Shown piece by piece: positions 17,466 to 54,800 of a DNA stretch of 64,000 bases (the stretch's first letter is position 1; each line of letters opens with the position of its first letter). The position numbers and the translations under genes are program-made. The notes under the pieces were generated by a model that saw only the letters and a list, made by a program, of their open reading frames with translations, was not told the DNA's origin and ran no database searches. Source of the DNA: Eudorina sp. 2006-703-Eu-15 (lineage: Eukaryota > Chlorophyta > Chlorophyceae > Chlamydomonadales > Volvocaceae); NCBI GenBank assembly GCA_003117195.1, contig BDSI01000015.1:311001-375000 (forward strand). Reading direction: 5' to 3'.

Positions 17466-17624
17466 CTCCACGCTCTCCGGCCACACCGTATACGCAAGCA
17501 AGGTGACGACACTCAGTGTATGTAGCACGACCGACCAGCGACAGGTCGCCTCGGCCCTGAGGGTGATAGCGGACACGGAGAGCTCCCTCAAACACGACAG
17601 AAAATTGGTTGGTAGATAACCGTC

Positions 17625-27800: not shown

Positions 27801-30800
27801 CAACATGAATTCAGCATTGCCTTTCAGCTGGTGTTGTCCTCAACCGCGTGCGACATCGTCTCCACAGCTCTGTTTGGCGCCGCTTTCATGAGTGCGGTGG
27901 GGCGAATTTTCGCTTTCCAACGGGCCAAATTGCCGGGCAAATGGTGCCCACAGCGCGAAGAACTTTGTGTTTTCGGAGCTAATTGAGCGGAAAATCGCGT
28001 TTACCGTATCACAGTGGTCAGCTTAATGAGCAGATCAATAAATTATGCGAGCTTTTAATTAGCAATTAAAGTATTAAATATAATCATTAACCCAAAACGA
28101 ATTGTTATTTAGGACAGCATTCATAAATTTATCACCTTATGCAAATCAGCATTACCATTTACCTTGGTAATTTAATTCAATAGATAAATCCATTTTCTTA
28201 CCCTCTCATTAAATTTACACACCATCACCAACCGCGGGACTGCTATCTTTAATAAATTAAATATTTATGGGCCCAAAACCCTGGAATGTTTGTATTTCCC
28301 GGACCCCCAGAAAACCTGCGAGATTTCATTTATTGGACGCTGTAAGGAGCCGGAAATCTGCCCTCCCAACTATTTTCCAGACTACCAAAAGAGCCTGAAC
28401 CTGTGTACTGCCAAAACACACTCTGATGCCGTGTCCCGGACTCCTGGTTACCCTCCCATATGCATCCGCGACGCCAGGAAAGCGCGCTTCAGCCCTTCAA
28501 GGCTGAGAATCCTTGTCGTAGCTATAATGGCAGTGACCCTTCTGTCGGAACATGCAGATCTCGGCCTGCCCGGAGGCTTTTATTTCCTGGCATCTAGGAA
28601 GGCCCCCAAAATCTGCCCTGCCAAAGGTTTTTTGGCTACTGGCGGAATTTTATTTCCCCGTTTTGGAAGTTAGCAACACTGAGCGGGAGGTTCATGCATT
28701 TATGCCGCCCCACACCAGGCAGGTTACTATTGCCCCAGGATTGCTCTCCTCACTCGGCGGGGAGGGGCCTGGGATTTGAACCGCTTATCTTTAGACAGAT
28801 AGGAGTAAAGACTGTAGATGCAATTGCGGTTGATGAGCTAAACAGGTTAAATAAGCGATTGGAAGATCCATAAACTACATAGACCAATCGAGCCAGGTAC
28901 CGCCCGCTAAGGCGCACGACAGTAGCGAGTGGCGATGCATGGACACATACTTAATGGAGGGGGAGGCGCACTATTTGGCGGCGGGGTCTGCACTGGTGGT
29001 GGAGATGTTGCCGGTAGGGGTGGCGGAGGTGGTGCACGGCGTGGCGTACGTGGCGACGGAGATGGAGCCGGTAGGGGTGGCGGAGAAGGCGCAAGGCGTG
29101 ACGGCGGATTTGGCGCTGGTAGGGGTGGCGGAGGAGGTAGAGGAGGCACAATGCGTGGCGGAGGAGATGGCGCTGGTAGCGGTGGAGGTGGCGGCAACGG
29201 CGGCGGCGTCAAGCCTGCAGCATCCAACAGCATCCAGCAGCAAATGTAAATAATTATACCGATAGATATGAGCAATACTGAAAATGCGTTGATATTATTT
29301 GCTTGCTCTTACACCCTCTTTGATGAAGACGACGGGCGTGGGCAGTCGATTTGATCCGTTCTATACAAATTACAGACTCCTTAGCCATCCAGCCACTCCA
29401 GCTAGCCTTCCACGTTGCTGGATACTGCAGATCGGCCAAACCGAGGCGGCCGACGCAGCAGGCTGATTCCTATTCATACGCACACTATCTACACTTCGAT
29501 AATCTATCTAGATTTGATTACAGGTAGCTAGGGCACCGCCACGCACTGATGCGAACTTACCAATAGGTGTATGTGCAGAAATCAAGGAACACAAGTGCTT
29601 AATATGATGGACGTGTCGGTGGGATAACATACAGGCTATACCGTATCGACTCAAATTTTTGCGAGACGATTATCTTGCGAGGCCAGAAAATAATTAAATT
29701 TTCAATATACAATACAATGTTTGCGAGGCGCCGATTGGGGCATATTTCAAAATTTCTGAAATTTGCGAGCTCGTGAGCAGCATATTACCATTAGCAAACA
29801 CGCATCATATCGTCAGCAAAGGTATCGTACTCTGACTAAAACAATTAAAGAAACTACAGACGCTCTGTTTCGGAGGGCATTCCTGTCATCGCCTACTCAT
29901 CAACGTGCGCTGCGGCTGCCCACCTATGCTTAGAAAGAACTGCAAAACGGGCGGCTGCCTTATATATTTATTTTTACGAAAACATTTTTCGAGATGCCTT
30001 GGAGTTTCATTTAAAACTCTAGGGTTTAGGGTTATATATTTATTTTTGCGAAAACATTTTTCGAGATGCCTTGGAGTTTCATTTGAAACCCTAAAGATTT
30101 GCGAGGGGTCCATGCGAGGTTTTCTTGACACTTTGCGAGGCCCCAAACTGTCAATTATTTATTCGCAAAAAGATTGAATCGATACGGTACAGGCTTTAGA
30201 TGCAAAGGCGGTAAATGAGAAAAACACGCAAGTTATCCGCGTTTCCATAAACAGATAATGAAACCAGGTGCCGCCCGACACTAAAAGCGCATGAATGTGG
30301 CGAGCGGCGATGCATGAGCACGTACTTGATGGAGGCGGAAGCGCACTGCTTGGCGGCGGGGCCTGCACTGGTGGTAGAGATGGCGCCGGTAGGGGTGGCG
30401 GAGGAGGTAGAGGAGGCGCACGGCGTTTTGGTGGAGATGGTGGCGCAAGTAGAGGTGGAGGTGGCGGCAATGGCGGCGACGTCAAGCCTGCAGCGAACAT
30501 CCAGCAGTAACATCGTCCATGACTATGCAGTCCAGTTATAAGTCCAGTAATCACTGTTGTTGCATTCCGGCAGATATAATTAGTCCGCTGGACCATGGTG
30601 ATATGTATCCATGTTGATACATATTATATATGGTGTGTACATATGTCTGTTTCGAAAAGAGACCCGCCCGACCCAAATATGTGTATATGGTTAACGTGGT
30701 GTAAACATATGATGTATGTATGGTGTATGAGAATGCCCTCAACACAGATGTAGGTAGCGGCTCATGAGCATCACTCGCCTTCTGGGGATGGAGGGTTCGG

Positions 30801-33800
30801 GCTCTGGACCACGGAGGTGGCGCCCGTCGCAGCTGCCAGACTCGCAGTTGTCATCGGAGGGGAGGGTGGCGGCCGAGGCGGCCGAGGCGGTGGCGAGCGC
30901 GGAGCGATCGGATCCAGCACGCCAGGCGGTACAGGCGGCCTCGGCGGCGGCGAGGGCGGCAGTGGCACGTCAGTGTACGTGGTGACAACAAAATTGACGG
31001 TAGCGGTGTCGGAACCAGTGGTGGTCTGTTGCAGGGCCCGCCGGGATGCCTGCTGCTGCTGTGAGCCGAAGCTGCTGAGCAGCTCCTCCTCCCGGGCCTG
31101 CAGGGCCGCCCAGGCCTCGGCGCCGCTGATCGGCTGCTGACTGTCCAGCTGCTCCAGGGAGGAAAGGCCCAGGTCGTGGAGAGCTGCCAGGCCTAAAATG
31201 TCAAGAGCGCTTCGCCGCCGGGCCACCGCCGGGACGGAGACCCCGTTGACGATCACAGCGGTGATGGCGATCTGGTCTACAGGGATGCCCCACGCGACGG
31301 ATAATCGCCGCTTGAAGTCTGCCACGAATGCTTGTACGGCGGTCTGTTGGAAGGCGCAACGAAAACACAGAAGACTGTTTCGTCAACCGCACACCTTTGT
31401 GATTGAATCACTACACCTTGCGTGCTCGCTCCTTTTAATAAAGAAAGCAACTCAGCGCATGCTGTGGCGGGATAAGCATAGGCCAAGGGAAGAAAGGGAA
31501 ATCCATAGCTTCATAAAATACATTGGAGTGGAGCTGCTGACATTGGGTCCACACTTATACACTTATACACTGTATCCACCTAGGTGGATTGCGTCTCCAC
31601 GATGGCAAAGTCGGAACAACCCGACTAGCCGCAGCAGACTTCGGCAACCTATGAATAACAAGAATGGCTAGGCACGACAATACCACTGCCGAAAATCGGG
31701 AGCCGGACGCAGAGGAGGTCCCTGTTGTCCGCATCACCCGCGAACGATGGATACAGATCGCGGGACCCAACCCCCAAAAGCTGCCAGTAAAGCAGTTTCA
31801 CATTGTAATAAAATTTGATCGGCTAAGCCGCAAAATCGACGTCATCAACTTCGTGGCCCAGTTTGTTCGGCCGCGCATCATTGGGCTCGTCCAGGCGACG
31901 CCAATCAGTTTGGAAGGGGTCTCGGACTCATTCCGAGTTTTCGACATGAAAGACGGCCGGCAATACGCCCGGGTCACGATCGGTGTCCCACAGGAGAACG
32001 CAGACTCGGTCCGGGACCACCTCCGACGGTGCCTGGGACCATGGGGGGAGCTGACCCTGGGCAGGTTCTACACAAAGGCCGGAGTATACCCGCCCGCAGA
32101 CCCAGCCGCCCGAGGCGCAGCCGGGGATAGGGACTGCTCCCGGAGGAACTGCCCGAGGGGGGCCGCCCCGGCCTCGAGCATGTATTCCCAGACCTGGTGG
32201 ACTGCACCGGGCTGCAAACGATCGGACAGTTCATCCGTGTAGGGGAGGACGGAGGCGCTCCGGATGGTAATAACAGACGGCTGGGCAGAGCCACACTACA
32301 TAGACTCCGCTCGCATGGCACGGTGCGCCACACGGGCATGGGCGACCTTCCCATGGGCGACCTTCCCATGGGCGACCTTCGTACAGGATTGCCTGGGCTC
32401 TCGCGCGGGGGCCAGGCGATGGGGTGATTGGCGGCAATGGGCCGAACTAGACCAACGCCTGGTGGACCTTCACGCAAGGCTGCCAGCGGCCTGGGTGGCA
32501 GCAGCCCTAGAGGTACGGGCGAACGGGGCCCAGGGGGCGCAGGTGCCCACGAAAGAGGAGGTGACGGCCATGCTGCTCGATCGCATGGGCTGGCAGTTGA
32601 AAAATGGGCGGAAGGTGGCCCTGAGAGAGTATTCTGTTCGAGTGGGGACGGCGATGCAACTAGCCGAGGTGGCGGAACGTCGCAGTGCGGCCCACTTGCT
32701 GTTTGCCTGTGAGGCGGTCGGTAGGACTGGGGCCACCGACCCGATCACTCAGGTGGCGGCCGCCCGGATCCAGGGACTGCTGAGCCGCCTCTGGCGTAGT
32801 ACCCGGTGGGAAAATGAGCATAAGGAGGCCTTTTGGCGCCTTACAGTCGATGGCGTCCCGTTGTTGGGCAATTCCCACATGCGCCACGCGAGGGTGGCGC
32901 GGTGTGGATGCTGTTGATACCCAACGGAAGGCGGGGGGACAGAAACACCCCGCCAGCACCATTTCTGGTCGTGCCGGGTGGCCCAGGCGGTGGCGGGTCA
33001 GATGGAATCGCGCCTAGGGGCGCGGATAAGGAGGACGCATGTCTGGCTGGCTGAACCCCCGCCACCCGTGGAGCAATGTGTATGGGATGTGGTGGTGTTG
33101 GCCGCGATCGCGGCCATGGAGACTGGTCGCCGATTCATATGCATGGCGGCCGCCCTGCAGCGGTCGGTCAGCACCTGGTCAGGGTACGACTGTACGGCCG
33201 GGACCGGAATTGGCAGAGCAAGGGGAGCGGCGCGCAATTGCTGACTTTTGGGGGCGCCTTCACGGGTTTGCCCAGTTGGGACTCCCGAGACGTGGATGGA
33301 CCTCGGTGGGCCCGTTCCACCCTTTGAAAGTGTCGGGGGGAGTCTTGCGGTGTGCGGGGCCTGCTCCTGATGAGGGATCGCCCCCTCTATCCCGCCCTCT
33401 ATCTGTTTGTATTCGGGTTATCCGACCCGGGGCTCAAGTTGGGGACCTGGCCTGCCCTCAGATTAGGTAGGAGGCAGGGCTCCCGTTGGTATGTCATTGC
33501 TTGGCCTAGGTATTTCTTCTGATGCGGGCTACTCCACTAGCGGTCGCTGGGCAGTGTCACGAGCCAGGCGTGGGTCTTCCAAGACCTCGAGAGGGTGCAG
33601 CGTTGGGTGCCTCAGGGGTGGTGGTAGCTGGGTGATGGGGTGCCTGTGTGGGCGACTTCCCCTGTGCTTGGCTTTATCCACTTCTGGGGATTCTGCCCTC
33701 TGCTGTGCCTATCCCTTTGGTAGTGTTGCCCCGCTGCGCGCCGCTGCTTGCTTCGGTGTCTGGCTTGGTGGGGTCATGGCCCGGTGTGTTTTTGGGTGCG

Positions 33801-36800
33801 GCGTTGAGGTGTGGAGGTGTCCTGCCGCCTTGGCGGTGGGGCCTGCTGGGGCTTGCCCTGGTATACACCGGTGATCCCTTTGGGGTCCGCTGTAACGTTT
33901 ACTCATTCATTCATCAACCCCGCTCAGTTCGCACACGCCACGGTTCAAGACAACGGGGGCATTACGAGTATTTATGCTTTTGAGCTCCATGCATGTTCAG
34001 GTCGAAGTTCAGTAAACAATATGTATGTATTCTATCTGTACCTACCTGGTTGACCGCACCGGTAGCAGACGTCAGCGTCAGATTAGCGAAGCCCGCGCTG
34101 TAGGAGGTGGTGACGGCAGCGATACCCGGGGGCAGGGGCTGCGGTGACAGCTGTAGGGGCGGCGGACCTGCGCGCAGGTCGGTGTTGTGGTATAATCAGA
34201 CATTTCGGTCGTGTGAGATCGATGCGATGACGTACCTTTGTATCAAAATGCGCTAAATGTGCTACGTGATGTATATTTATATATTTAATATTTATTGGAA
34301 GAATAAAACACCTTCAATTGCCATAAATGATGTTCTAGGGTGTTGTGGCCCTGGTATTGTTGCTTTTTACAGATTAATTAAAAATCGTGTATAACTGTGG
34401 CGCTTTCGGATTCTTGGAGCTTGGCGTGAAGCAGGAGGGTCTTAGCGTTTAATGGAGCTAGGCTGAATATGTATTATTAAGGTACTTTGTATGATGATTA
34501 GCATTACAACACCATAAATTGGCGGTCTGGTATGATTACACCTATTATCTTATTATTATGATGATAATGAATAAGAATAAGAAGAATAAGAATACTATTA
34601 AGAATGCGGTAATTACAAAATCAAGTATGGCTATCGACAAGTTAGCAATGCTGAAGGGGCCCCTTGATCTACTTGGGCTTACTTTGAAAAGGAGGTGGTG
34701 CATGTGATGGCGGCGGTGGCGATGGCGGCGGTGGCGATGGCGGCGGTGGCGATGGCGGCGGTGGCGATGGTGGTGGTGGCGCTGCAGGCAGAAACATCGA
34801 TCGCAGGCAAAATGAGAATGTGCACCTAGATAGCTCACGGCCACGCAGGACGTGAGGGAACACATATTGAACGCAATCGTGCACGCCGAACACCACTCTA
34901 ACCACTCATATGCGCCTACGAGCTCATATCTGGGCCCGTTGGACACCCGGTCGGGACTAAGGGTCCTGCTCGCAACGGTTACATATAATGTAACCGTTAC
35001 AAGGTGGACCCGTATCTCGACCGGGTGTTCCAACGGGCCCAGATAGCTCGTAGGTTCCTCGTCTCATCAACCCCTACCAAGGACTGCGCACCCATCCTCC
35101 ATCACCCGCGAGGGGGTCACGCAGCCATACCGGCCACTACACCAGGTTACCCGCGCGCCAGGATTGCCTCTCCTGGAAACCGCGCCAGACCCGCCTAATT
35201 ATAATCACAATGCGGTGAGGGGACGGGGACGGGGTTACATATGATGAAGTCCCGGCCTGCTGTTCGTGAGCTGCCATGCAGCCATGCCGGCCAACACATA
35301 CACCAGCTTACCAGTTCATCATGCACATCATGCTGTGACGTCGGAGTAGTCGGAGCAAAGGCACGAGTAGTAATTGATTTTCGGGATCCTCCCCGACGTT
35401 ACACCTTCGTTTCAAGACACAACAGACACAACCCGATCAGCAGCTACCTGGCTGCTGCTGATCGCAATCCTTTTCATTCACCTGGTGGCGGCGGGCGTGG
35501 AGATGGCGGCGGTGGTGGAGATGGCGACGGCGGTGGTGGAGCTGCAATTACAACAGGTAGGGCGGCATCAGCGACGCAGAACTACCGTTTGCGCGGAATC
35601 TCACCGACACATGCCAGGGTTCACCATACGATGGCAGCAATTTGTAATCTGCCCAGCCACAAGGTGGTCGGTTGCTTGCATCAGAATACTCGCTTGCATC
35701 AGAATATTCGCTTGCATCAGAATATTTAACCAGCAGGCTGATGAAAGCCTGAGAAATTAGAGGAATCCACCTTGCTTCCCTCTTCAGGAACGTAGCTCAT
35801 GCAGCAAAAATGCCGTACGTACGCCTGTGGTTTAAGAAAAACAACTCACGAAAACGTTTGATGTACAGGCAGAGCCCGTTGTTCCGGGCCGTACTCCCGA
35901 CGTTGGACTTTGTGACAAGATGCAAAGGGATAGCATACCGAGTACCAACGAGTTCTCCAGTTCCGATGGCCCGAAGTCCGGCTCTCACCGCGACGTTTTT
36001 GCACCCTGCTTTTGCTTTACATTGCTATGTAACTATTGTATAGCAAACTTTAGAGGTTCACGTCTGCTGCACGCGTGCAGCAGAAGGGTTGCAAGCTTGC
36101 CGACGGACCAAACAACGACAGTTTCACGGCCAGAATGCTTCAAGGTTGATTTTTGATATCTGCTTGACAGACGGATGTGGTAGTGCAGAGGCGTCTAGCG
36201 TTACGATAATAATGCAGATGCGGTAACCGCCGTTGGCAGCGCGTACTGCAGGTTGGTTTCGGGGCTACCCTACCTGCTTGATCTTGCTCAATCTATGCAC
36301 GCCGATCCACCAACATCAACGACACCCTCAATGGCACCCTTTCACTCTCTCACACTCTTGCGTGGTAACAGAGTTTCCGTTGTAAAGCAAGCGGCCTGTA
36401 CGGATTGTAGGGGGCCCCGCCCTTTTCCGGCTTCGAGGAAGCCGACCCCTACTTGTCATTCACCTGGTGGCGGCGGGCGTGGAGATGGCGGCGGTGGTGG
36501 AGATGGCGACGGCGGTGATGGAGCTGCAATTACAACAGGTAGGGCGGCATCAGCGACGCAGAACTACCGTTTGCGCGGAATCTCACCGACACATGCCAGG
36601 GTTCACCATACGATGGCAGCCATTTGTAATCTGCCCAGCCACAAGGTGGTCGGTTGCTTGCATCAGAATACTCGCTTGCATCAGAATATTTAACCAGGCT
36701 GATGAAAGCCTGAGAAATTAGAGGAATCCACCTTGCTTCCCCCTTCAGGAACGTAGCTCATGCAGCAAAAATGCCGTACGTACGCCTGTGGTTAAAGAAA

Positions 36801-39800
36801 AACAACTCACGAAAAAGTTTGATGTACAGGCAGAGCCCGTTGTTCCGGGCGGTACTCCCGACGTTGGACTTGGTGAATCCCAGGCCGTGTATACCGGAAT
36901 CGGCGAAAACCGGCGACACGTAGATGTAGCCCATGCAACTCGGATTGGCATTGCATAAGGCTGTTGGATTGGTGACGTACATATCGATGTCGTAACCAGG
37001 TGCATCGGTGTTCTCCATAACGTTGTAACCGGTCACCGGAGGGCACACTGCAGGCAAGGAGCGAGGCAAGTAGCTAGATCATCGACCGTGACAACGCGGC
37101 AATATTTACATTATACACCAGACATTTAGTACGTTTCGTGGTTTCATAATCATTCAATGTATTGGTGTAATCCTTATAATTAATTATACCAAAGTATACT
37201 GCAATACATAAATTATTTAAAAATACTGTTATTATTATTATGATTACACCTATTATCTTATTATTATGATGATAATGAATAAGAAGAATAAGAATAAGAA
37301 TACTATTAAGAATGCGGTAATTACAAAGTCAAGTATGGCTATCGACAAGTTAGCAATGCTGAAGGGGCCCCTTGATCTACTTGGGCTTACTTTGAAAAGG
37401 AGGTGGTGCATGTGATGGCTTCGGTGGCGATGGCGGCGGTGGCGATGGCGGCGGTGGCGATGGCGGCGGTGGCGATGGTGGTGGTGGCGCTGCAGGCAGA
37501 AACAGCAAAATGAGAATGTGCACCTAGATAGCTCACGGCCACGCAGGACGTGACGGAACACATATTGAACGCAATCGTGCACGCCGAACACCACTCTAAC
37601 CACTCATATGCGCCTACGAGCTCATATCTGGGCCCGTTGGACACCCGGTCGGGACTAAGGGTCCTGCTCGCAACGGTTACATATAATGTAACCGTTACAA
37701 GGTGGACCCGTATCTCGACCGGGTGTTCCAACGGGCCCAGATAGCTCGTAGGTTCCTCGTCTCATCAACCCCTACCAAGGACTGCGCACCCATCCTCCAT
37801 CACCCGCGAGGGGGTCACGCAGCCATACCGGCCACTACACCAGGTTACCCGCGCGCCAGGATTGCCTCTCCTGGAAACCGCGCCAGACCCGCCTAATTAT
37901 AATCACAATGCGGTGAGGGGACGGGGACGGGGTTACATATGATGAAGTCCCGGCCTGCTGTTCGTGAGCTGCCATGCAGCCATGCCGGCCAACACATACA
38001 CCAGCTTACCAGTTCATCATGCACATCATGCTGTGACGTCGGAGTAGTCGGAGCAAAGGCACGAGTAGTAATTGATTTTCGGGATCCTCCCCGACGTTAC
38101 ACCTTCGTTTCAAGACACAACAGACACAACCCGATCAGCAGCTACCTGGCTGCTGCTGATCGCAATCCTTTTCATTCACCTGGTGGCGGCGGGCGTGGAG
38201 ATGGCGGCGGTGGTGGAGATGGCGACGGCGGTGATGGAGCTGCAATTACAACAGGTAGGGCGGCATCAGCGACGCAGAACTACCGTTTGCGCGGAATCTC
38301 ACCGACACATGCCAGGGTTCACCATACGATGGCAGCAATTTGTAATCTGCCCAGCCACAAGGTGGTCGGTTGCTTGCATCAGAATACTCGCTTGCATCAG
38401 AATATTCGCTTGCATCAGAATATTTAACCAGCAGGCTGATGAAAGCCTGAGAAATTAGAGGAATCCACCTTGCTTCCCTCTTCAGGAACGTAGCTCATGC
38501 AGCAAAAATGCCGTACGTACGCCTGTGGTTTAAGAAAAACAACTCACGAAAATGTTTGATGTACAGGCAGAGCCCGTTGTTCCGGGCCGTACTCCCGACG
38601 TTGGACTTTGTGACAAGATGCAAAGGGATAGCATACCGAGTACCAACGAGTTCTCCAGTTCCGATGGCCCGAAGTCCGGCTCTCACCGCGACGTTTTTGC
38701 ACCCTGCTTTTGCTTTACATTGCTATGTAACTATTGTATAGCAAACTTTAGAGGTTCACGTCTGCTGCACGCGTGCAGCAGAAGGGTTGCAAGCTTGCCG
38801 ACGGACCAAACAACGACAGTTTCACGGCCAGAATGCTTCAAGGTTGATTTTTGATATCTGCTTGACAGACGGATGTGGTAGTGCAGAGGCGTCTAGCGTT
38901 ACGATAATAATGCAGATGCGGTAACCGCCGTTGGCAGCGCGTACTGCAGGTTGGTTTCGGGGCTACCCTACCTGCTTGATCTTGCTCAATCTATGCACGC
39001 CGATCCACCAACATCAACGACACCCTCAATGGCACCCTTTCACTCTCTCACACTCTTGCGTGGTAACAGAGTTTCCGTTGTAAAGCAAGCGGCCTGTACG
39101 GATTGTAGGGGGCCCCGCCCTTTTCCGGCTTCGAGGAAGCCGACCCCTACTTGTCATTCACCTGGTGGCGGCGGGCGTGGAGATGGCGGCGGTGGTGGAG
39201 ATGGCGACGGCGGTGATGGAGCTGCAATTACAACAGGTAGGGCGGCATCAGCGACGCAGAACTACCGTTTGCGCGGAATCTCACCGACACATGCCAGGGT
39301 CCACCATACGATGGCAGCCATTTGTAATCTGCCCAGCCACAAGGTGGTCGGTTGCTTGCATCAGAATACTCGTTTGCATCAGAATATTTAACCAGGCTGA
39401 TGAAAGCCTGAGAAATTAGAGGAATCCACCTTGCTTCCCCCCTCAGGAACGTAGCTCATGCAGCAAAAATGCCGTACGTACGCCTGTGGTTAAAGAAAAA
39501 CAACTCACGAAAAAGTTTGATGTACAGGCAGAGCCCGTTGTTCCGGGCGGTACTCCCGACGTTGGACTTGGTGAATCCCAGGCCGTGTATACCGGAATCG
39601 GCGAAAACCGGCGACACGTAGATGTAGCCCATGCAACTCGGATTGGCATTGCATAAGGCTGTTGGATTGGTGACGTACATATCGATGTCGTAACCAGGTG
39701 CATCGGTGTTCTCCATAACGTTGTAACCGGTCACCGGAGGGCACACTGCAGGCAAGGAGCGAGGCAAGTAGCTAGATCATCGACCGTGACAACGCGGCAA

Positions 39801-42800
39801 TATTTACATTATACACCAGACATTTAGTACGTTTCGTGGTTTCATAATCATTCAATGTATTGGTGTAATCCTTATAATTAATTATACCAAAGTATACTGC
39901 AATACATAAATTATTTAAAAATACTGTTATTATTATTATGATTACACCTATTATCTTATTATTATGATGATAATGAATAAGAAGAATAAGAATAAGAATA
40001 CTATTAAGAATGCGGTAATTACAAAGTCAAGTATGGCTATCGACAAGTTAGCAATGCTGAAGGGGCCCCTTGATCTACTTGGGCTTACTTTGAAAAGGAG
40101 GTGGTGCATGTGATGGCTTCGGTGGCGATGGCGGCGGTGGCGATGGCGGCGGTGGCGATGGCGGCGGTGGCGATGGTGGTGGTGGCGCTGCAGGCAGAAA
40201 CAGCAAAATGAGAATGTGCACCTAGATAGCTCACGGCCACGCAGGACGTGACGGAACACATATTGAACGCAATCGTGCACGCCGAACACCACTCTAACCA
40301 CTCATATGCGCCTACGAGCTCATATCTGGGCCCGTTGGACACCCGGTCGGGACTAAGGGTCCTGCTCGCAACGGTTACATATAATGTAACCGTTACAAGG
40401 TGGACCCGTATCTCGACCGGGTGTTCCAACGGGCCCAGATAGCTCGTAGGTTCCTCGTCTCATCAACCCCTACCAAGGACTGCGCACCCATCCTCCATCA
40501 CCCGCGAGGGGGTCACGCAGCCATACCGGCCACTACACCAGGTTACCCGCGCGCCAGGATTGCCTCTCCTGGAAACCGCGCCAGACCCGCCTAATTATAA
40601 TCACAATGCGGTGAGGGGACGGGGACGGGGTTACATATGATGAAGTCCCGGCCTGCTGTTCGTGAGCTGCCATGCAGCCATGCCGGCCAACACATACACC
40701 AGCTTACCAGTTCATCATGCACATCATGCTGTGACGTCGGAGTAGTCGGAGCAAAGGCACGAGTAGTAATTGATTTTCGGGATCCTCCCCGACGTTACAC
40801 CTTCGTTTCAAGACACAACAGACACAACCCGATCAGCAGCTACCTGGCTGCTGCTGATCGCAATCCTTTTCATTCACCTGGTGGCGGCGGGCGTGGAGAT
40901 GGCGGCGGTGGTGGAGCTGCAATTACAACAGGTAGGGCGGCATCAGCGACGCAGAACTACCGTTTGCGCGGAATCTCACCGACACATGCCAGGGTTCACC
41001 ATACGATGGCAGCAATTTGTAATCTGCCCAGCCACAAGGTGGTCGGTTGCTTGCATCAGAATACTCGCTTGCATCAGAATATTCGCTTGCATCAGAATAT
41101 TTAACCAGCAGGCTGATGAAAGCCTGAGAAATTAGAGGAATCCACCTTGCTTCCCTCTTCAGGAACGTAGCTCATGCAGCAAAAATGCCGTACGTACGCC
41201 TGTGGTTTAAGAAAAACAACTCACGAAAACGTTTGATGTACAGGCAGAGCCCGTTGTTCCGGGCCGTACTCCCGACGTTGGACTTTGTGACAAGATGCAA
41301 AGGGATAGCATACCGAGTACCAACGAGTTCTCCAGTTCCGATGGCCCGAAGTCCGGCTCTCACCGCGACGTTTTTGCACCCTGCTTTTGCTTTACATTGC
41401 TATGTAACTATTGTATAGCAAACTTTAGAGGTTCACGTCTGCTGCACGCGTGCAGCAGAAGGGTTGCAAGCTTGCCGACGGACCAAACAACGACAGTTTC
41501 ACGGCCAGAATGCTTCAAGGTTGATTTTTGATATCTGCTTGACAGACGGATGTGGTAGTGCAGAGGCGTCTAGCGTTACGATAATAATGCAGATGCGGTA
41601 ACCGCCGTTGGCAGCGCGTACTGCAGGTTGGTTTCGGGGCTACCCTACCTGCTTGATCTTGCTCAATCTATGCACGCCGATCCACCAACATCAACGACAC
41701 CCTCAATGGCACCCTTTCACTCTCTCACACTCTTGCGTGGTAACAGAGTTTCCGTTGTAAAGCAAGCGGCCTGTACGGATTGTAGGGGGCCCCGCCCTTT
41801 TCCGGCTTCGAGGAAGCCGACCCCTACTTGTCATTCACCTGGTGGCGGCGGGCGTGGAGATGGCGGCGGTGGTGGAGATGGCGACGGCGGTGATGGAGCT
41901 GCAATTACAACAGGTAGGGCGGCATCAGCGACGCAGAACTACCGTTTGCGCGGAATCTCACCGACACATGCCAGGGTCCACCATACGATGGCAGCCATTT
42001 GTAATCTGCCCAGCCACAAGGTGGTCGGTTGCTTGCATCAGAATACTCGTTTGCATCAGAATATTTAACCAGGCTGATGAAAGCCTGAGAAATTAGAGGA
42101 ATCCACCTTGCTTCCCCCCTCAGGAACGTAGCTCATGCAGCAAAAATGCCGTACGTACGCCTGTGGTTAAAGAAAAACAACTCACGAAAAAGTTTGATGT
42201 ACAGGCAGAGCCCGTTGTTCCGGGCGGTACTCCCGACGTTGGACTTGGTGAATCCCAGGCCGTGTATACCGGAATCGGCGAAAACCGGCGACACGTAGAT
42301 GTAGCCCATGCAACTCGGATTGGCATTGCATAAGGCTGTTGGATTGGTGACGTACATATCGATGTCGTAACCAGGTGCATCGGTGTTCTCCATAACGTTG
42401 TAACCGGTCACCGGAGGGCACACTGCAGGCAAGGAGCGAGGCAAGTAGCTAGATCATCGACCGTGACAACGCGGCAATATTTACATTATACACCAGACAT
42501 TTAGTACGTTTCGTGGTTTCATAATCATTCAATGTATTGGTGTAATCCTTATAATTAATTATACCAAAGTATACTGCAATACATAAATTATTTAAAAATA
42601 CTATTATGATTACACCTATTATCTTATTATTATGATGATAATGAATAAGAAGAATAAGAATAAGAATACTATTAAGAATGCGGTAATTACAAAGTCAAGT
42701 ATGGCTATCGACAAGTTAGCAATGCTGAAGGGGCCCCTTGATCTACTTGGGCTTACTTTGAAAAGGAGGTGGTGCATGTGATGGCTTCGGTGGCGATGGC

Positions 42801-45800
42801 GGCGGTGGCGATGGCGGCGGTGGCGATGGCGGCGGTGGCGATGGTGGTGGTGGCGCTGCAGGCAGAAACAGCAAAATGAGAATGTGCACCTAGATAGCTC
42901 ACGGCCACGCAGGACGTGAGGGAACACATATTGAACGCAATCGTGCACGCCGAACACCACTCTAACCACTCATATGCGCCTACGAGCTCATATCTGGGCC
43001 CGTTGGACACCCGGTCGGGACTAAGGGTCCTGCTCGCAACGGTTACATATAATGTAACCGTTACAAGGTGGACCCGTATCTCGACCGGGTGTTCCAACGG
43101 GCCCAGATAGCTCGTAGGTTCCTCGTCTCATCAACCCCTACCAAGGACTGCGCACCCATCCTCCATCACCCGCGAGGGGGTCACGCAGCCATACCGGCCA
43201 CTACACCAGGTTACCCGCGCGCCAGGATTGCCTCTCCTGGAAACCGCGCCAGACCCGCCTAATTATAATCACAATGCGGTGAGGGGACGGGGACGGGGTT
43301 ACATATGATGAAGTCCCGGCCTGCTGTTCGTGAGCTGCCATGCAGCCATGCCGGCCAACACATACACCAGCTTACCAGTTCATCATGCACATCATGCTGT
43401 GACGTCGGAGTAGTCGGAGCAAAGGCACGAGTAGTAATTGATTTTCGGGATCCTCCCCGACGTTACACCTTCGTTTCAAGACACAACAGACACAACCCGA
43501 TCAGCAGCTACCTGGCTGCTGCTGATCGCAATCCTTTTCATTCACCTGGTGGCGGCGGGCGTGGAGATGGCGGCGGTGGTGGAGCTGCAATTACAACAGG
43601 TAGGGCGGCATCAGCGACGCAGAACTACCGTTTGCGCGGAATCTCACCGACACATGCCAGGGTTCACCATACGATGGCAGCAATTTGTAATCTGCCCAGC
43701 CACAAGGTGGTCGGTTGCTTGCATCAGAATACTCGCTTGCATCAGAATATTCGCTTGCATCAGAATATTTAACCAGCAGGCTGATGAAAGCCTGAGAAAT
43801 TAGAGGAATCCACCTTGCTTCCCTCTTCAGGAACGTAGCTCATGCAGCAAAAATGCCGTACGTACGCCTGTGGTTTAAGAAAAACAACTCACGAAAACGT
43901 TTGATGTACAGGCAGAGCCCGTTGTTCCGGGCCGTACTCCCGACGTTGGACTTTGTGACAAGATGCAAAGGGATAGCATACCGAGTACCAACGAGTTCTC
44001 CAGTTCCGATGGCCCGAAGTCCGGCTCTCACCGCGACGTTTTTGCACCCTGCTTTTGCTTTACATTGCTATGTAACTATTGTATAGCAAACTTTAGAGGT
44101 TCACGTCTGCTGCACGCGTGCAGCAGAAGGGTTGCAAGCTTGCCGACGGACCAAACAACGACAGTTTCACGGCCAGAATGCTTCAAGGTTGATTTTTGAT
44201 ATCTGCTTGACAGACGGATGTGGTAGTGCAGAGGCGTCTAGCGTTACGATAATAATGCAGATGCGGTAACCGCCGTTGGCAGCGCGTACTGCAGGTTGGT
44301 TTCGGGGCTACCCTACCTGCTTGATCTTGCTCAATCTATGCACGCCGATCCACCAACATCAACGACACCCTCAATGGCACCCTTTCACTCTCTCACACTC
44401 TTGCGTGGTAACAGAGTTTCCGTTGTAAAGCAAGCGGCCTGTACGGATTGTAGGGGGCCCCGCCCTTTTCCGGCTTCGAGGAAGCCGACCCCTACTTGTC
44501 ATTCACCTGGTGGCGGCGGGCGTGGAGATGGCGGCGGTGGTGGAGATGGCGACGGCGGTGATGGAGCTGCAATTACAACAGGTAGGGCGGCATCAGCGAC
44601 GCAGAACTACCGTTTGCGCGGAATCTCACCGACACATGCCAGGGTTCACCATACGATGGCAGCCATTTGTAATCTGCCCAGCCACAAGGTGGTCGGTTGC
44701 TTGCATCAGAATACTCGCTTGCATCAGAATATTTAACCAGGCTGATGAAAGCCTGAGAAATTAGAGGAATCCACCTTGCTTCCCCCTCAGGAACGTAGCT
44801 CATGCAGCAAAAATGCCGTACGTACGCCTGTGGTTAAAGAAAAACAACTCACGAAAAAGTTTGATGTACAGGCAGAGCCCGTTGTTCCGGGCGGTACTCC
44901 CGACGTTGGACTTGGTGAATCCCAGGCCGTGTATACCGGAATCGGCGAAAACCGGCGACACGTAGATGTAGCCCATGCAACTCGGATTGGCATTGCATAA
45001 GGCTGTTGGATTGGTGACGTACATATCGATGTCGTAACCAGGTGCATCGGTGTTCTCCATAACGTTGTAACCGGTCACCGGAGGGCACACTGCAGGCAAG
45101 GAGCGAGGCAAGTAGCTAGATCATCGACCGTGACAACGCGGCAATATTTACATTATACACCAGACATTTAGTACGTTTCGTGGTTTCATAATCATTCAAT
45201 GTATTGGTGTAATCCTTATAATTAATTATACCAAAGTATACTGCAATACATAAATTATTTAAAAATACTGTTATTATTATTATGATTACACCTATTATCT
45301 TATTATTATGATGATAATGAATAAGAAGAATAAGAATAAGAATACTATTAAGAATGCGGTAATTACAAAGTCAAGTATGGCTATCGACAAGTTAGCAATG
45401 CTGAAGGGGCCCCTTGATCTACTTGGGCTTACTTTGAAAAGGAGGTGGTGCATGTGATGGCTTCGGTGGCGATGGCGGCGGTGGCGATGGCGGCGGTGGC
45501 GATGGCGGCGGTGGCGATGGTGGTGGTGGCGCTGCAGGCAGAAACATCGATCGCAGGCAAAATGAGAATGTGCACCTAGATAGCTCACGGCCACGCAGGA
45601 CGTGAGGGAACACATATTGAACGCAATCGTGCACGCCGAACACCACTCTAACCACTCATATGCGCCTACGAGCTCATATCTGGGCCCGTTGGACACCCGG
45701 TCGGGACTAAGGGTCCTGCTCGCAACGGTTACATATAATGTAACCGTTACAAGGTGGACCCGTATCTCGACCGGGTGTTCCAACGGGCCCAGATAGCTCG

Positions 45801-48800
45801 TAGGTTCCTCGTCTCATCAACCCCTACCAAGGACTGCGCACCCATCCTCCATCACCCGCGAGCGAGGGGGTCACGCAGCCATACCGGCCACTACACCAGG
45901 TTACCCGCGCGCCAGGATTGCCTCTCCTGGAAACCGCGCCAGACCCGCCTAATCACAATGCGGTGAAGGGACGGGGACGGGGTTACATATGATGAAGTCC
46001 CGGCCTGCTGTTCGTGAGCTGCCATGCAGCCATGCCGGCCAACACAAACACCAGCTTACCAGTTCATCATGCACATCATGCTGTGACGTCGGAGTAGTCG
46101 GAGCAAAGGCACGAGTAGTAATTGATTTTCGGGATCCTCCCCGACGTTACGCCTTCGTTTCAAGACACAACAGACACAGCCCATAGCTACCTGGCTGCTG
46201 CTAATCGCAATCCTTTTCATTCACCTGGTGGCGGCGGGCGTGGAGATGGCGGCGGTGGTGGAGATGGCGACGGCGGTGATGGAGCTGCAATTACAACAGG
46301 TAGGGCGGCATCAGCGACGCAGAACTACCGTTTGCGCGGAATCTCACCGACACATGCCAGGGTTCACCATACGATGGCAGCCATTTGTAATCTGCCCAGC
46401 CACAAGGTGGTCGGTTGCTTGCATCAGAATACTCGCTTGCATCAGAATATTTAACCAGGCTGATGAAAGCCTGAGAAATTAGAGGAATCCACCTTGCTTC
46501 CCCCCTCAGGAACGTAGCTCATGCAGCAAAAATGCCGTACGTACGCCTGTGGTTAAAGAAAAACAACTCACGAAAAAGTTTGATGTACAGGCAGAGCCCG
46601 TTGTTCCGGGCGGTACTCCCGACGTTGGACTTGGTGAATCCCAGGCCGTGTATACCGGAATCGGCGAAAACCGGCGACACGTAGATGTAGCCCATGCAAC
46701 TCGGATTGGCATTGCATAAGGCTGTTGGATTGGTGACGTACATATCGATGTCGTAACCAGGTGCATCGGTGTTCTCCATAACGTTGTAACCGGTCACCGG
46801 AGGGCACACTGCAGGCAAGGAGCGAGGCAAGTAGCTAGATCATCGACCGTGACAACGCGGCAATATTTACATTATACACCAGACATTTAGTACGTTTCGT
46901 GGTTTCATAATCATTCAATGTATTGGTGTAATCCTTATAATTAATTATACCAAAGTATACTGCAATACATAAATTATTTAAATACTGTTATTATTATTAT
47001 GATTACACCTATTATCTTATTATTATGATGATAATGAATAAGAAGAATAAGAATAAGAATACTATTAAGAATGCGGTAATTACAAAGTCAAGTATGGCTA
47101 TCGACAAGTTAGCAATGCTGAAGGGGCCCCTTGATCTACTTGGGCTTACTTTGAAAAGGAGGTGGTGCATGTGATGGCGGCGGTGGCGATGGTGGTGGTG
47201 GCGCTGCAGGCAGAAACATCGATCGCAGGCAAAATGAGAATGTGCACCTAGATAGCTCACGGCCACGCAGGACGTGAGGGAACACATATTGAACGCAATC
47301 GTGCACGCCGAACACCACTCTAACCACTCATATGCGCCTACGAGCTCATATCTGGGCCCGTTGGACACCCGGTCGGGACTAAGGGTCCTGCTCGCAACGG
47401 TTACATATAATGTAACCGTTACAAGGTGGACCCGTATCTCGACCGGGTGTTCCAACGGGCCCAGATAGCTCGTAGGTTCCTCGTCTCATCAACCCCTACC
47501 AAGGACTGCGCACCCATCCTCCATCACCCGCGAGCGAGGGGGTCACGCAGCCATACCGGCCACTACACCAGGTTACCCGCGCGCCAGGATTGCCTCTCCT
47601 GGAAACCGCGCCAGACCCGCCTAATCACAATGCGGTGAAGGGACGGGGACGGGGTTACATATGATGAAGTCCCGGCCTGCTGTTCGTGAGCTGCCATGCA
47701 GCCATGCCGGCCAACACAAACACCAGCTTACCAGTTCATCATGCACATCATGCTGTGACGTCGGAGTAGTCGGAGCAAAGGCACGAGTAGTAATTGATTT
47801 TCGGGATCCTCCCCGACGTTACGCCTTCGTTTCAAGACACAACAGACACAGCCCATAGCTACCTGGCTGCTGCTAATCGCAATCCTTTTCATTCACCTGG
47901 TGGCGGCGGGCGTGGAGATGGCGGCGGTGGTGGAGATGGCGACGGCGGTGATGGAGCTGCAATTACAACAGGTAGGGCGGCATCAGCGACGCAGAACTAC
48001 CGTTTGCGCGGAATCTCACCGACACATGCCAGGGTTCACCATACGATGGCAGCCATTTGTAATCTGCCCAGCCACAAGGTGGTCGGTTGCTTGCATCAGA
48101 ATACTCGCTTGCATCAGAATATTTAACCAGGCTGATGAAAGCCTGAGAAATTAGAGGAATCCACCTTGCTTCCCCCCTCAGGAACGTAGCTCATGCAGCA
48201 AAAATGCCGTACGTACGCCTGTGGTTAAAGAAAAACAACTCACGAAAAAGTTTGATGTACAGGCAGAGCCCGTTGTTCCGGGCGGTACTCCCGACGTTGG
48301 ACTTGGTGAATCCCAGGCCGTGTATACCGGAATCGGCGAAAACCGGCGACACGTAGATGTAGCCCATGCAACTCGGATTGGCATTGCATAAGGCTGTTGG
48401 ATTGGTGACGTACATATCGATGTCGTAACCAGGTGCATCGGTGTTCTCCATAACGTTGTAACCGGTCACCGGAGGGCACACTGCAGGCAAGGAGCGAGGC
48501 AAGTAGCTAGATCATCGACCGTGACAACGCGGCAATATTTACATTATACACCAGACATTTAGTACGTTTCGTGGTTTCATAATCATTCAATGTATTGGTG
48601 TAATCCTTATAATTAATTATACCAAAGTATACTGCAATACATAAATTATTTAAATACTGTTATTATTATTATGATTACACCTATTATCTTATTATTATGA
48701 TGATAATGAATAAGAAGAATAAGAATAAGAATACTATTAAGAATGCGGTAATTACAAAGTCAAGTATGGCTATCGACAAGTTAGCAATGCTGAAGGGGCC

Positions 48801-51800
48801 CCTTGATCTACTTGGGCTTACTTTGAAAAGGAGGTGGTGCATGTGATGGCGGCGGTGGCGATGGTGGTGGTGGCGCTGCAGGCAGAAACATCGATCGCAG
48901 GCAAAATGAGAATGTGCACCTAGATAGCTCACGGCCACGCAGGACGTGAGGGAACACATATTGAACGCAATCGTGCACGCCGAACACCACTCTAACCACT
49001 CATATGCGCCTACGAGCTCATATCTGGGCCCGTTGGACACCCGGTCGGGACTAAGGGTCCTGCTCGCAACGGTTACATATAATGTAACCGTTACAAGGTG
49101 GACCCGTATCTCGACCGGGTGTTCCAACGGGCCCAGATAGCTCGTAGGTTCCTCGTCTCATCAACCCCTACCAAGGACTGCGCACCCATCCTCCATCACC
49201 CGCGAGGGGGTCACGCAGCCATACCGGCCACTACACCAGGTTACCCGCGCGCCAGGATTGCCTCTCCTGGAAACCGCGCCAGACCCGCCTAATTATAATC
49301 ACAATGCGGTGAGGGGACGGGGACGGGGTTACATATGATGAAGTCCCGGCCTGCTGTTCGTGAGCTGCCATGCAGCCATGCCGGCCAACACATACACCAG
49401 CTTACCAGTTCATCATGCACATCATGCTATGACGTCGGAGTAGTCGGAGCAAAGGCACGAGTAGTAATTGATTTTCGGGATCCTCCCCGACGTTACACCT
49501 TCGTTTCAAGACACAACAGACACAACCCATAGCTACCTGGCTGCTGCTGATCGCAATCCTTTTCATTCACCTGGTGGCGGCGGGCGTGGAGATGGCGGCG
49601 GTGGTGGAGATGGCGACGGCGGTGATGGAGCTGCAATTACAACAGGTATGGCGGCATCAGCGACGCAGAACTACCGTTTGCGCGGAATTTCACCGACACA
49701 TGCCAGGGTTCACCATACGATGGCAGCCATTTGTAATCTGCCCAGCCACAAGTTGGTCGGTTGCTTGCATCAGAATACTCGCTTGCATCAGAATATTTAA
49801 CCAGGCTGATGAAAGCCTGAGAAATTAGAGGAATCCACCTTGCTTCCCCCTTCAGGAACGTAGCTCATGCAGCAAAAATGCCGTACGTACGCCTGTGGTT
49901 AAAGAAAAACAACTCACGAAAAAGTTTGATGTACAGGCAGAGCCCGTTGTTCCGGGCGGTACTCCCGACGTTGGACTTGGTGAATCCCAGGCCGTGTATA
50001 CCGGAATCGGCGAAAACCGGCGACACGTAGATGTAGCCCATGCAACTCGGATTGGCATTGCATAAGGCTGTTGGATTGGTGACGTACATATCGATGTCGT
50101 AACCAGGTGCATCGGTGTTCTCCATAACGTTGTAACCGGTCACCGGAGGGCACACTGCAGGCAAGGAGCGAGCAAGCGAGGGCAGCAGACAACCGACCGT
50201 CGCGCACACCGTGAAATCCATGCAACTGATGATATCGATCCACTATATTGGTAATCTTGGCCGTAAATTACTAACTACAATAGCTGCCTGCATCTAAAAC
50301 TGTCAATCCTTCCGGCATAAGCACACCACAAACCCTATGACAAAAAACACAAGTAAGATCTGATTGCATACACAGCGTTGGCTATCATGCATGTAATGCA
50401 TGTCGACCATGCAGTTTAATAACGGGCGGCGGGCTAGGCGGGCGCCCCTATGACTCTTTGGTACAATGGGTCTGTAGCCCCGATAGCCCCGAGGGGCCAG
50501 TAACGGAGTTACGGAGTAGACGGAGCGGGCTGCTATGCGCTCCAGGTCCGCCACAACGGAAACCTCAGCAGCACAGCCTCACAGCACCACAAGCGAGCAG
50601 GCCCACTAGGCCCACCCGCTCTCGCTCCCTGCAGCGCGCGAACAGACGCGCAACGTCTGTAATCTTGAAGACCGTGTATATACGGTCAGCAGCACGCAGT
50701 AGCTAGATAGCCTACATACTTGCAATGAGGCTATCTCTATCTCGCGCACGTGCACGATGCCTGACTACTTGATCCAACTGCATAGAAAACAAACAAGCTC
50801 AACCCATATCCCGCCCGATTACTGCTATGTCCGCCTATATGTAATAAGCTGATTAGTTTCGGGGCCGAGCGCGTAGAGCGCGCGGGCTGGGCGGCGTGCA
50901 TGGCGCGCGATGCAGTTCGTTGGCTGGCAGTGCTCGAAAGCGAGCGAGCGAACCTACCTAACTGATGAGAGAACTACACATATCATTTTTTGATTATACA
51001 ATATATATATATATATGAAAACGCCCTATCTGTGTGTGTGTGTGTGTGTGTGTGAATCGTTACACATCTGCCGGGCCGACACTGGCCGGGGGCGCTAACC
51101 CGCCCCATACGGGAGACCGCCGAAGCACTTTCCCCCGGATACGGGGGAAAGGGGCGTAAGGGGCCTCTGTCCCCTCGCTCTCAACCTAGGGCGCGTGCCC
51201 GATCCCCGGGATCGGTGACCGCTGTGCCCCCTCAAGGGAGTGGGCGAAGGCCCATCCCGGGCGGTCTGCGCCTCGCAGTCCGCTGTTCAACCTCCTCAAG
51301 TCCTTGCAGCACCCAGGGCGCGTTTCGGAGGCGCGCCCCTGCTTGGTGCGGTAAAACTAGCCTGGTCCCGCGTCCCAACCTAATCGTACTAGCTAGGGTT
51401 GCACCCTCCGGCAGGCCTGCCTGCCCAGCTGAGCCAGAGCGAGGCGGCTCGCACGCGTCAGGCCTTGCTGGGTCCGGGTATGCAGTCGGGTGCTCCATGA
51501 TGGGGCTATGGTTTGCACAAGGCAGCACATCACCACGCAAGCTTCCCTGTCGTACACCCCTTCCCGTCGCAAGCGGCCCTCGCCTACACGTCCCGCTCGC
51601 TGCCAACTCCCACTGGTCTGGCCCGACCCTCCTCGGGCACCCACGGATCCCCATCGTGCCCGGAAGTGGGCTTCCCTAGTCCCAATCCCTACCCCCTAGC
51701 GTCTCGCGCTGCTATCTATCCATCACGAGTCTACGTCTACTGGCTGCACGCAGCGGATCCGGCCGTCCACCACCGATAGGATTGGGTGGTCTGGTCCCAC

Positions 51801-54800
51801 CCCCTCCCATCCCCGTCGCGGTCGGCCCAGTTCTGCGAAACTGGCCACCCGCTGCCAGAACTCCATGACTGCGCGCGCCTTAGCTACATCAACCGGCGAC
51901 GGGGCAGCCGGCGCCCCCGGCACGGGCTGTGCGCCGCCGTGGAGGGTCGCTGCACGTAACCCCACCCTCGCCCGCTCCATGGCCGTCAGCGCCGCCAGGG
52001 CAACGATGTCCCAAACCCCTTGCTGTACCCCCTGTGGCGGCTCAGCCAGGTGTGTATAATGAAATGTAACCGTTACAAGGTCGACCCGAGTCCCGACCGC
52101 GTGTTCTGACGGGCCCAGATAGTTTGTAGGAACCTCATCTCATCAGCCCCTACCAAGGACTGCGTAACCATCCTCCATCACCCGCGGGGGCTCATGCAGC
52201 CATACCGGCCAACACACAAGGTTAGTTCGTTACCAGCAGCGCGCCAGGATTGCCTCTCCTGAAAACCGCGCCAGACCCGCCGAATCACACATATATATAG
52301 GGTTTAGGGTTACATGGGTTTAGGGTTATATGTATATACTAGGGTAAACCCTAAACCCTATATATATATGTAAACATATATATATATATAACCCTATATA
52401 TAACCCTATATATATAACCCTATATATATGGTGTGTGCATGATTAAGGTTGGGACTAATAAGCGCCTGTCGTCGGATAGATCGCCATGGCCCCATATTCT
52501 TGTTACTGTACATGCGCCTGATCACCTCGCAAGGCAAAAAAAGGTTTTTTATTTTTTCATTTCGACTTCTTGAGGTATTTCTCAGTTCTCGCTCCTCAGA
52601 TTGTAGATAGGAAACCGTATTTATTTAAATATTGCGCAGTGCGAAGTTAATAAGCTGCTGCGTACATACTGCGTTAGCGGCACAAGCGCGCGCTGCCCAA
52701 AATGCACCCCTGGGCATAACGAGAGCTTTCACTGATATACCCCATCTCATATCACTCCTTGCCCTATTTAAATGCACCAGGGTAGGGCTTTGCGCTTTGG
52801 GGCGCGGGAGGCAAGGCAGGGTCGGTAGCTAGGGTAGCCGTGGTCTATCTATTTGCAGTTTTAGCAGTTTCGCGCACATCTATAGCTAGCTGTTGGCGTA
52901 TTGCTTTTTACGTTAGCGGAGGCCGGCTGGGAAATTATTTATTTGCGCGAAACTAATGGCATTAACGTTGATATCAACTGGGTACGGTAATCGACATCTG
53001 GAAGGCCCCTCCAGCGCCTCCGCCCCGCCCGCTGGCCATTCCGTTCATTTGTTCTACTCGTTCCCTACTATCCCCACACACGCACCTAGAGGTGGCGGCG
53101 GCGAAGGAGACCTCACAGGCGCTGGTGGAAAGGTATATCCTGCATGAACATGCACATACATGGGTACGTACGGCGGTGGTGAGCACCGGACGCGCATATG
53201 CAGACAGAATGACTTGAGCCATCGGTGGCGGCATAAGCAATAAAGACGCAGAACTCAGCGTTTTTAGGTTAGTATTTTATTATATATTTATCCAGTAAAG
53301 GTAAACATATAATATATTATTGTAGTTCTTAAAAACATACTTACTTACACGTATTTGTTTTCGTAATCCAGCAAATATATTACATATAATATCTGTACAA
53401 ATTCTTAGTTGTGTAGATTAATAATTCAGGACGGCCTTAAGATATACCTCAAATACAGATGAAGCACTGTCCCAGCATCTCGAGAAGCCCTTGGCATGCC
53501 CGCTCTCACTTATTACATACAGCCCCGGCCCCGTAACACACGCCGCGGTTTCGAACCTAGGCGCATCATAATTATTATATTAATATTAATTATTTTATCC
53601 ATCATTATTATTATATTTATTTTATGTTATAATATTTTTACGTTTATTTTAAACCCATCCTTATTGTCTAAAATTATGTTCATTGTTAACAATGAACAGA
53701 TACGCGTGAGTTCGACCGTACAGCGCACCTTGAATTTTAATCCAATAGCAGCAATCACGGCACGGGGTCAGGTCCTTGAAGGTTGCCGTCCTTGTCCAGC
53801 CATCATCGCCGAACGATGTGCAATCCGGACGGGCAGCGCACACAGCCGCGGCGTTGCTAGGCGTCACTGCATACTCCAGGTCGAAATCAAAGCTCTCGAC
53901 TGACACGTTGAAGTATGAAATGTACCCGGCGTACGTTGGGCAACCTGCGCGCAGCATTATTTGAGCGCGTGCGTGAATGGCTTCGGTCGGTGCATACAGG
54001 CGATGCAGGCCAGGTCGGTGCCATGCACGAAAACCTTAATTATTGAGGACGAACATGCAAGTCAGCACGCGCGCCGACGTAGGTGCACTCCTGCGTTAGT
54101 TCACGGTCAAAAATGTATCTGGATGCCTTTAGACATACATACAGCCACGTAGAGCATCACAAATGCGCTGCAGATGTACGGATGCACTGATGCGGCCTGG
54201 CAGATGGGGTAGATGGGGCGATGCAGGCAACATGCATACATTTATCCCTGCCGACATGCGACTGACGGTCGGTGCAGTCCGCGAAGTCCTCGCTTGCGAG
54301 CGGATGGTACGCAAGGATGGCCATACATATGGGGAGCGAGCGAAAGTGCGTTAGGGAGAAGGCCCCCAAAGTCCCGGGGTCAAAACCCCGAGCTACTCGA
54401 GCTAGCGCACGGCCATCATGGCTGGGTGTATGAAATTGATGCATGTCGACCTCACCCCATTCTGACGTGGCTATAACTCTCATCCTTGGGCACCCCACGC
54501 ACGCAGCGCAACCGACATGGGCGCGCGGTTCACGGTTCTTTATTTGCCGTTATAAAATGCATCACAAGGCGCATGCTTGACATCTAAGGATGGAGCACAT
54601 GTATGTGTACGCATGTAGCTAGCTAAGAAGGAAGCAGGGCTTCCACGCATCAACTGCTTATTTGGTTCACCTTCCTACATCCCAAGCACGAGGACGGAAC
54701 AGTGGCACGCACGTACGCGCGCGTCCGGTTGCCAGCAGCTTGAGTCTTACAGACTCGAAAGACATCATCAATAACTACCGTAATCCGTTCACACCGTCAA

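Follow-up and report, generated by a model that had tools for sequence, protein, structure and literature searches.

A young tandem array of PAN-like and proline-rich exons in a predicted secreted-protein gene of Eudorina

In this work, seven near-identical tandem units were identified by repeat search and self-alignment in a stretch of 64,000 bases (the window) from Eudorina sp. 2006-703-Eu-15. The window comprises bases 311,001–375,000 of contig BDSI01000015.1 (C15), and the whole assembly of 181,203,499 bases in 3,033 contigs was searched. It is likely that the units belong to one minus-strand gene, extending from about 54,994 to 20,730, which would encode a secreted proline-rich protein of PAN type and whose cassette would have been multiplied by recent unequal exchange. 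The original prediction had proposed seven near-identical units between 34531 and 50172 as a young amplification within one gene, each with a 237-base PAN exon of identical protein and proline-rich exons with canonical splice sites. As an observation this was right and slightly understated, and as an interpretation it is plausible and partly supported; the strand, which it did not give, is added here.

The units are numbered from U1 at the low end to U7 at the high end, which is 5' in the gene, and they are of two kinds. U1–U4, the four 3' units, are contiguous and 2,531–2,698 bases long, and U5–U7 measure 1,672–1,719 bases. Self-matches of at least 150 bases beyond the array are copies of two dispersed elements that are present in the units too. 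In the 5' to 3' direction of the minus strand, each unit carries the PAN-like exon (237 bases), a first proline-rich exon, Pro1 (60 bases), and a second, Pro2 (99 or 54 bases). The long units contain in addition a second Pro1 exon (Pro1', 60 or 39 bases), a PAN-exon remnant of 22 codons and a copy of a dispersed element about 542 bases long. The exons of the array are as follows.

34531–50172, minus strand: whole array, U1–U7 (repeat search and self-alignment)
49918–50154, minus strand: PAN exon of U7 (237 bases)
48244–48480, minus strand: PAN exon of U6
46572–46808, minus strand: PAN exon of U5
44853–45089, minus strand: PAN exon of U4
42186–42422, minus strand: PAN exon of U3
39509–39745, minus strand: PAN exon of U2
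36811–37047, minus strand: PAN exon of U1
49571–49630, minus strand: Pro1 exon of U7 (60 bases)
47897–47956, 46225–46284, 44507–44566, 41839–41898, 39162–39221 and 36464–36523, minus strand: Pro1 exons of the other units
43546–43584 (U4, 39 bases), 40878–40916 (U3, 39), 38180–38239 (U2, 60) and 35482–35541 (U1, 60), minus strand: extra Pro1' exons
48822–48875 (U7) and 47150–47203 (U6), minus strand: Pro2 exons of 54 bases
45433–45531 (U5), 42757–42855 (U4), 40089–40187 (U3), 37391–37489 (U2) and 34683–34781 (U1), minus strand: Pro2 exons of 99 bases

All 25 exons of the array have AG/GT splice sites and phase 1-1, their lengths are multiples of three, and within each class the pair of acceptor and donor is constant (CTGCAG/GTGAGT for PAN, TTGCAG/GTGAAT for Pro1, CTGCAG/GTAAGC for Pro2). 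The proline-rich exons number 18 (7 + 4 + 7), with lengths of 60, 39, 99 and 54 bases. For these exons we adopted the frame that agrees in phase with the PAN exons and yields SPPPP. The PAN exon is identical in all seven copies even as DNA, and a genome match search with the exact exon found seven places, all of them on C15; the best match beyond these was 66% identical. When the 25 exons are joined, they give 2,880 bases without a stop, that is 960 residues with seven PAN modules and 34% proline, in agreement with the tandem repeats of PAN and hydroxyproline-rich glycoprotein sequence that had been foreseen for a product spliced through. Chance is no explanation of the array, because 25 exons of four classes keep their frame and splice sites and join stop-free.

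On its sequence divergence, the array is young. Aligned without the extra part of the long units (1,730 columns), the units have 21 substituted columns, of which 19 lie in introns (19/1,334) and two, which are adjacent, in Pro2 (2/99), with none in the PAN exon (0/237) or Pro1 (0/60). Neighbouring units differ by 9, 0, 3, 7, 0 and 10 substitutions over 1.5–1.7 kb, and any pair by 14 at most. The reading as a young amplification within a gene is strengthened by a paralogue, described below, with an exon array of its own. Each neighbouring pair is distinct, either by substitutions or by an exon length difference of 21 or 45 bases. The biggest steps between neighbours are found at both ends of the array and the units with the 542-base element stand together as a block, which is the pattern expected under unequal exchange.

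The units also contain the PAN remnant and two kinds of inserted element, and the elements date the units further.

35916–36457, also 38614–39155, 41291–41832 and 43959–44500, no strand assigned: dispersed element of the long units, about 542 bases
35851–35916, also 38549–38614, 41226–41291 and 43894–43959, minus strand: remnant (22 codons) of a second PAN exon, adjoining the element
49006–49323 (extent approximate), no strand assigned: element resembling a miniature inverted-repeat transposable element (MITE), with an inverted repeat inside it, lying in the Pro1–Pro2 intron of every unit

The ends of the 542-base element were read by eye as TGACAAG (35913–35919) and CTTGTCA (36452–36458), and it may extend a few bases further. 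Among 40 places scored of 885 candidates, the four array copies are 100% alike and the 36 others 92–97%. Of 2,375 candidate places for the MITE-like element, 39 further ones were scored, a sample in which the array's own copies are absent; 38 of them are at 93–95% and one at 90%. Multiplication of the units thus came well after the insertion of the elements. The remnants (91% identity over 22 residues) were rejected as used exons, as neither the PAN acceptor nor the greater part of the domain is present in them. Elsewhere, the 542-base element recurs at a spacing of about 4.01 kb (C18:1302732–1311295 and C857:2621–7166), which hints at another tandem array with the element within its unit. More MITE-like copies, about 80–85% alike, occur in the window at 2472–2685 and 52063–52285. 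Rfam at gathering scores gave no match within the window.

The 237-base exon is likely to be PAN/Apple-like. A profile of 11 PAN-like exons had the factor XI heavy chain as its top PDB match (E 2e-5), and nine of the 11 PDB matches at E up to 10, with E values from 2e-5 to 1.2e-3, were to plasma kallikrein or factor XI, whose heavy chains consist of apple domains. Four cysteines are invariant in all 11 sequences, and five of the 11 members match Pfam PAN at E up to 0.1. The assignment made in the original prediction stands on this remote profile similarity and on the cysteines, although not on the Pfam cut-off. By comparing the window gene with its paralogue on C43, the ratio of nonsynonymous to synonymous divergence (dN/dS) was 0.25, 0.32 and 0.44 for PAN exons and 0.07–0.23 for four other exons; between the paralogues, this ratio is an average over the whole time since their split. 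Among the PAN copies within C43 it was 0.15, 0.26 and 0.46. The synonymous divergence (dS) of PAN exons was 0.08–0.21 within C43 and 0.50–0.76 between the genes. At the level of sequence, this shows that the PAN domain has on average been under constraint since the two genes diverged.

The paralogue lies at 573.8–606 kb of C43, on the minus strand, and its exon order matches that of the window gene: a signal-like exon, a PAN exon, 35 Pro exons and two PAN exons are followed by the unnamed M domain, a long Pro-rich exon and C-terminal exons. Joined together, the signal-like exon, all three PAN exons and the 35 Pro exons give 1,319 amino acids with no stop. The Pro exons are of 90 bases (31/35) or 93 bases (4/35) with a donor identical throughout, and 34 of the 35 stand in a tandem array (C43:587098–603808) with 33 full intervals of 485–490 bases and intact exons. 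Thus, while the two genes are alike in exon order, the sister gene multiplied a different exon, namely the Pro-rich linker exon only and not the PAN cassette. A third relative on C61, all on the minus strand, has PAN-like exons at 507–508 kb, with matches to the M domain at 497 kb and to the C-terminal part at 494 kb, which is the PAN, M and C-terminal order of the window gene.

Outside the array, the exons of the window gene are predictions. The training set of the simple exon finder consisted of 14 segments (1,154 codons) of the window and C43, most of them picked as conserved between both; the finder seeks internal exons only, and the gene model was completed by manual joining.

54916–54994, minus strand: ATG exon, signal-peptide-like (by eye), ending in phase 1, donor GTGCGT; matching exon at C43:605839–605923
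53729–53944, minus strand: PAN0, divergent eighth PAN-like exon, phase 1-1, 33% identical to the array PAN with shared cysteines
53086–53139, minus strand: Pro0, candidate short Pro-rich exon, phase 1-1 (prediction)
34046–34167, minus strand: M1a, Pro-rich with an AAVTTSY... motif (exon finder)
30779–31343, minus strand: M1b, unnamed domain and Pro-rich sequence, GC-type donor
30326–30487, minus strand: candidate Pro-rich exon
28972–29214, minus strand: candidate Pro-rich exon, alternative donor listed
25763–25935, minus strand: M2a
24503–25458, minus strand: M2b, a relative of M1b and M3b whose frame has a 1-base break
24056–24171, minus strand: M3a
23149–23716, minus strand: M3b, 70% identical to C43 over 135 residues
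22295–22908, minus strand: long Pro-rich exon, C43 counterpart at 575651–576243
21731–21841, minus strand: C-terminal domain exon 1
21267–21428, minus strand: C-terminal domain exon 2
20730–20966, minus strand: C-terminal domain exon 3, stop TGA, 78% identical to C43:573819–574040

PAN0 lies upstream of the array, beyond the span originally given, and 3' of the array the unnamed domain is repeated three times (M1, M2, M3). The frame is unbroken from the ATG exon to M2a and from M3a to the stop at 20,730. Without M2b the model comprises 6,302 bases, of which the array contributes 46%. No Pfam family matched M1b at E up to 1, or M3 and the C-terminal part at E up to 0.1, and a protein search with the M1 region (residues 248–400 of the condensed model) returned none of 3,943 candidates at E <=0.001, a weak negative as the library is perhaps poor in algal proteins of such a length. 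Downstream of the gene, the C-terminal exon recurs as a partial copy (window 17335–17472, 83% over 46 residues). With its putative signal peptide, judged by eye, and its Pro-rich SPPPP rods, the protein is probably of the hydroxyproline-rich glycoprotein type. The earlier description of the gene as matrix-type agrees with the signal-like first exon and the Pro-rich exons, and depends on that by-eye signal peptide and the SPPPP composition.

We hypothesize that a cassette made up of a PAN exon and two to three Pro-rich linkers, each exon flanked by phase-1 introns, was multiplied seven times through recent unequal exchange between tandem copies. Because the symmetric phase-1 exons make the cassette frame-neutral, the unit number could change without breaking the protein, and the gain or loss of a unit would make it longer or shorter in frame by 117 to 152 residues. 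Per unit, the protein gains a PAN module plus a Pro-rich spacer of 38 to 73 residues (in total 117, 132, 145 or 152), which would act as one binding module with a stiff spacer. In such a protein, spliced through the array, secreted, hydroxylated and glycosylated, the number of units would presumably vary and set the length and valency of the extracellular protein, or the avidity of a matrix fibre, provided that the PAN modules bind.

Several observations weigh against this reading. The lower variability of exons is not significant, either in the window array (2/396 vs 19/1,334, Fisher p 0.19), for PAN alone against introns (0/237, Fisher p 0.10) or in the C43 array (3/93 vs 24/397, p 0.45). 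There is no clean edge-to-centre series of divergence, as U1 and U4 differ by 5 substitutions, U1 and U2 by 9, and U4 and U5 by 7, and the in-frame indels of the Pro exons may stem from the SPPPP-coding repeat itself. For the Pro exons the codon score of the exon finder favoured another frame, and the finder gave the PAN exon of U7 a longer start. The window PAN exon scores 16.7 bits against Pfam PAN_4, below the cut-off of 27, and structure predictions from two-sequence alignments were poor for both the PAN exon (mean predicted local distance difference test score, pLDDT, 38.9) and the M domain (pLDDT 43.4). Finally, M1b requires a GC donor, and M2b has its 1-base frame break near 25.3 kb, which could be a lesion or an assembly error. 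This break is near a perfect 26-base palindrome, CCGAGCTTGCAGATCTGCAAGCTCGG (window 25100–25460).

Among other explanations, it is unlikely, although with a real chance, that the array is old and was homogenized by gene conversion. The C43 PAN copies are indeed closer to each other than to those of the window, as their dS values indicate. On the other hand, in the window array the introns and the two inserted element kinds are uniform too, and the element-bearing units are contiguous. Gene conversion and recent amplification may both be at work. That the gene is decaying, with exons intact merely because the copies are too young to break, is rather unlikely. It would account for the frame break in M2b, for the PAN remnants and dispersed element in four units, and for the non-significant contrast between exons and introns inside the array. 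However, the remaining exons of the model are open, as is the C43 paralogue over its 1,319 residues, and dN/dS with that paralogue stays below 0.5, albeit as the long-term average given above.

Whether the assembly itself created the array, by expanding a shorter one or collapsing a larger true number, depends in part on a further gene on C27. C27:1–38753 holds cassettes and long runs of Pro-rich repeats of about 480–515 bases, and the tandem repeats start at base 1. Exact probes of 25–30 bases found seven copies each of a PAN exon, an F5/8C exon and another exon, and here both PAN (29.1 vs 21.4 bits) and F5/8C (31.1 vs 28.2 bits) pass the Pfam cut-off. As PAN exons resembling these occur on the small contigs C349, C783 and C1137, the C27 array is suggested to be larger than assembled. 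Arrays in this assembly can therefore be incomplete, and one of 15.6 kb can exceed read length. For the window, an artefact is nonetheless quite unlikely, given that every neighbouring pair of units is distinct and that the exact PAN exon occurs only at its seven C15 places. It is very unlikely that the units are seven separate small genes or yield alternative single-cassette transcripts; mutually exclusive exons do occur in other genes, and start or terminal exons inside the units were not searched for by a finder of internal exons, but the symmetric exons can be joined in a common frame to the 5' part and to the 3' part of the gene, and C43 has a single signal-like exon and a single C-terminal part around a similar array.

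Taken with its relatives, the predicted unequal-exchange array may be one of several. The C27 gene resembles the window gene in having seven near-identical cassettes with PAN and Pro-rich sequence (PAN alone was compared), and differs in its extra F5/8C and another unnamed domain and in Pro-rich repeats within long open frames. It is possible, though rather doubtful, that phase-symmetric exons of this secreted PAN/Pro-rich gene family behave as coding macrosatellites, with subsets differing by gene (PAN and linker in the window, linker on C43, PAN and F5/8C on C27), and that a strain-variable unit number determines how long matrix fibres are and with what valency they bind.

Judged from its sequence, the array appears to belong among coding multi-exon tandem repeats, of which kringle IV-2 (KIV-2) of human LPA is an example: near-identical, phase-symmetric tandem units of whole exons and introns fall within one gene according to the predicted model. 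KIV-2 is described as a kilobase coding unit repeated in tandem within one gene (PMC7613587), with 5.6 kb per unit and 1–40 units (PMC11462820). Both are intragenic kilobase coding repeats of a secreted, modular protein, predicted as such for Eudorina, and KIV-2 gives many isoforms. Unlike KIV-2, the window array combines PAN and Pro-rich exons in units of 1.7–2.7 kb, with another domain, linker and organism, and is known from one assembly. Pherophorins, the hydroxyproline-rich matrix proteins of volvocine algae, are secreted and have SPPPP-type Pro-rich rods with globular domains. The window protein, predicted to be secreted, has similar rods; Pfam scans that covered M1b, PAN, PAN0, M3 and the C-terminal part gave no pherophorin match. 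Among open-licence papers, judged by title and the start of the abstract, none was recognized on exon arrays in volvocine matrix genes.

Volvocine matrix gene families expand by gene duplication. An in-frame exon array would provide a faster route, in which the size and valency of one protein are altered by whole modules; since any copy number keeps the reading frame, the sequence suggests that gain or loss of copies can lengthen or shorten the protein in this way. Gene annotation calls for caution here, as it will probably collapse or split arrays of this type. Two paralogues with different amplified exons make the idea testable through the comparison of strains. Volvocine algae are presented as a model for the step to multicellularity (PMC10066295), in which the extracellular matrix is considered important (PMC12377771). 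If the proposed mechanism is true, the unit number would be a quick genetic dial on a volvocine-type matrix.

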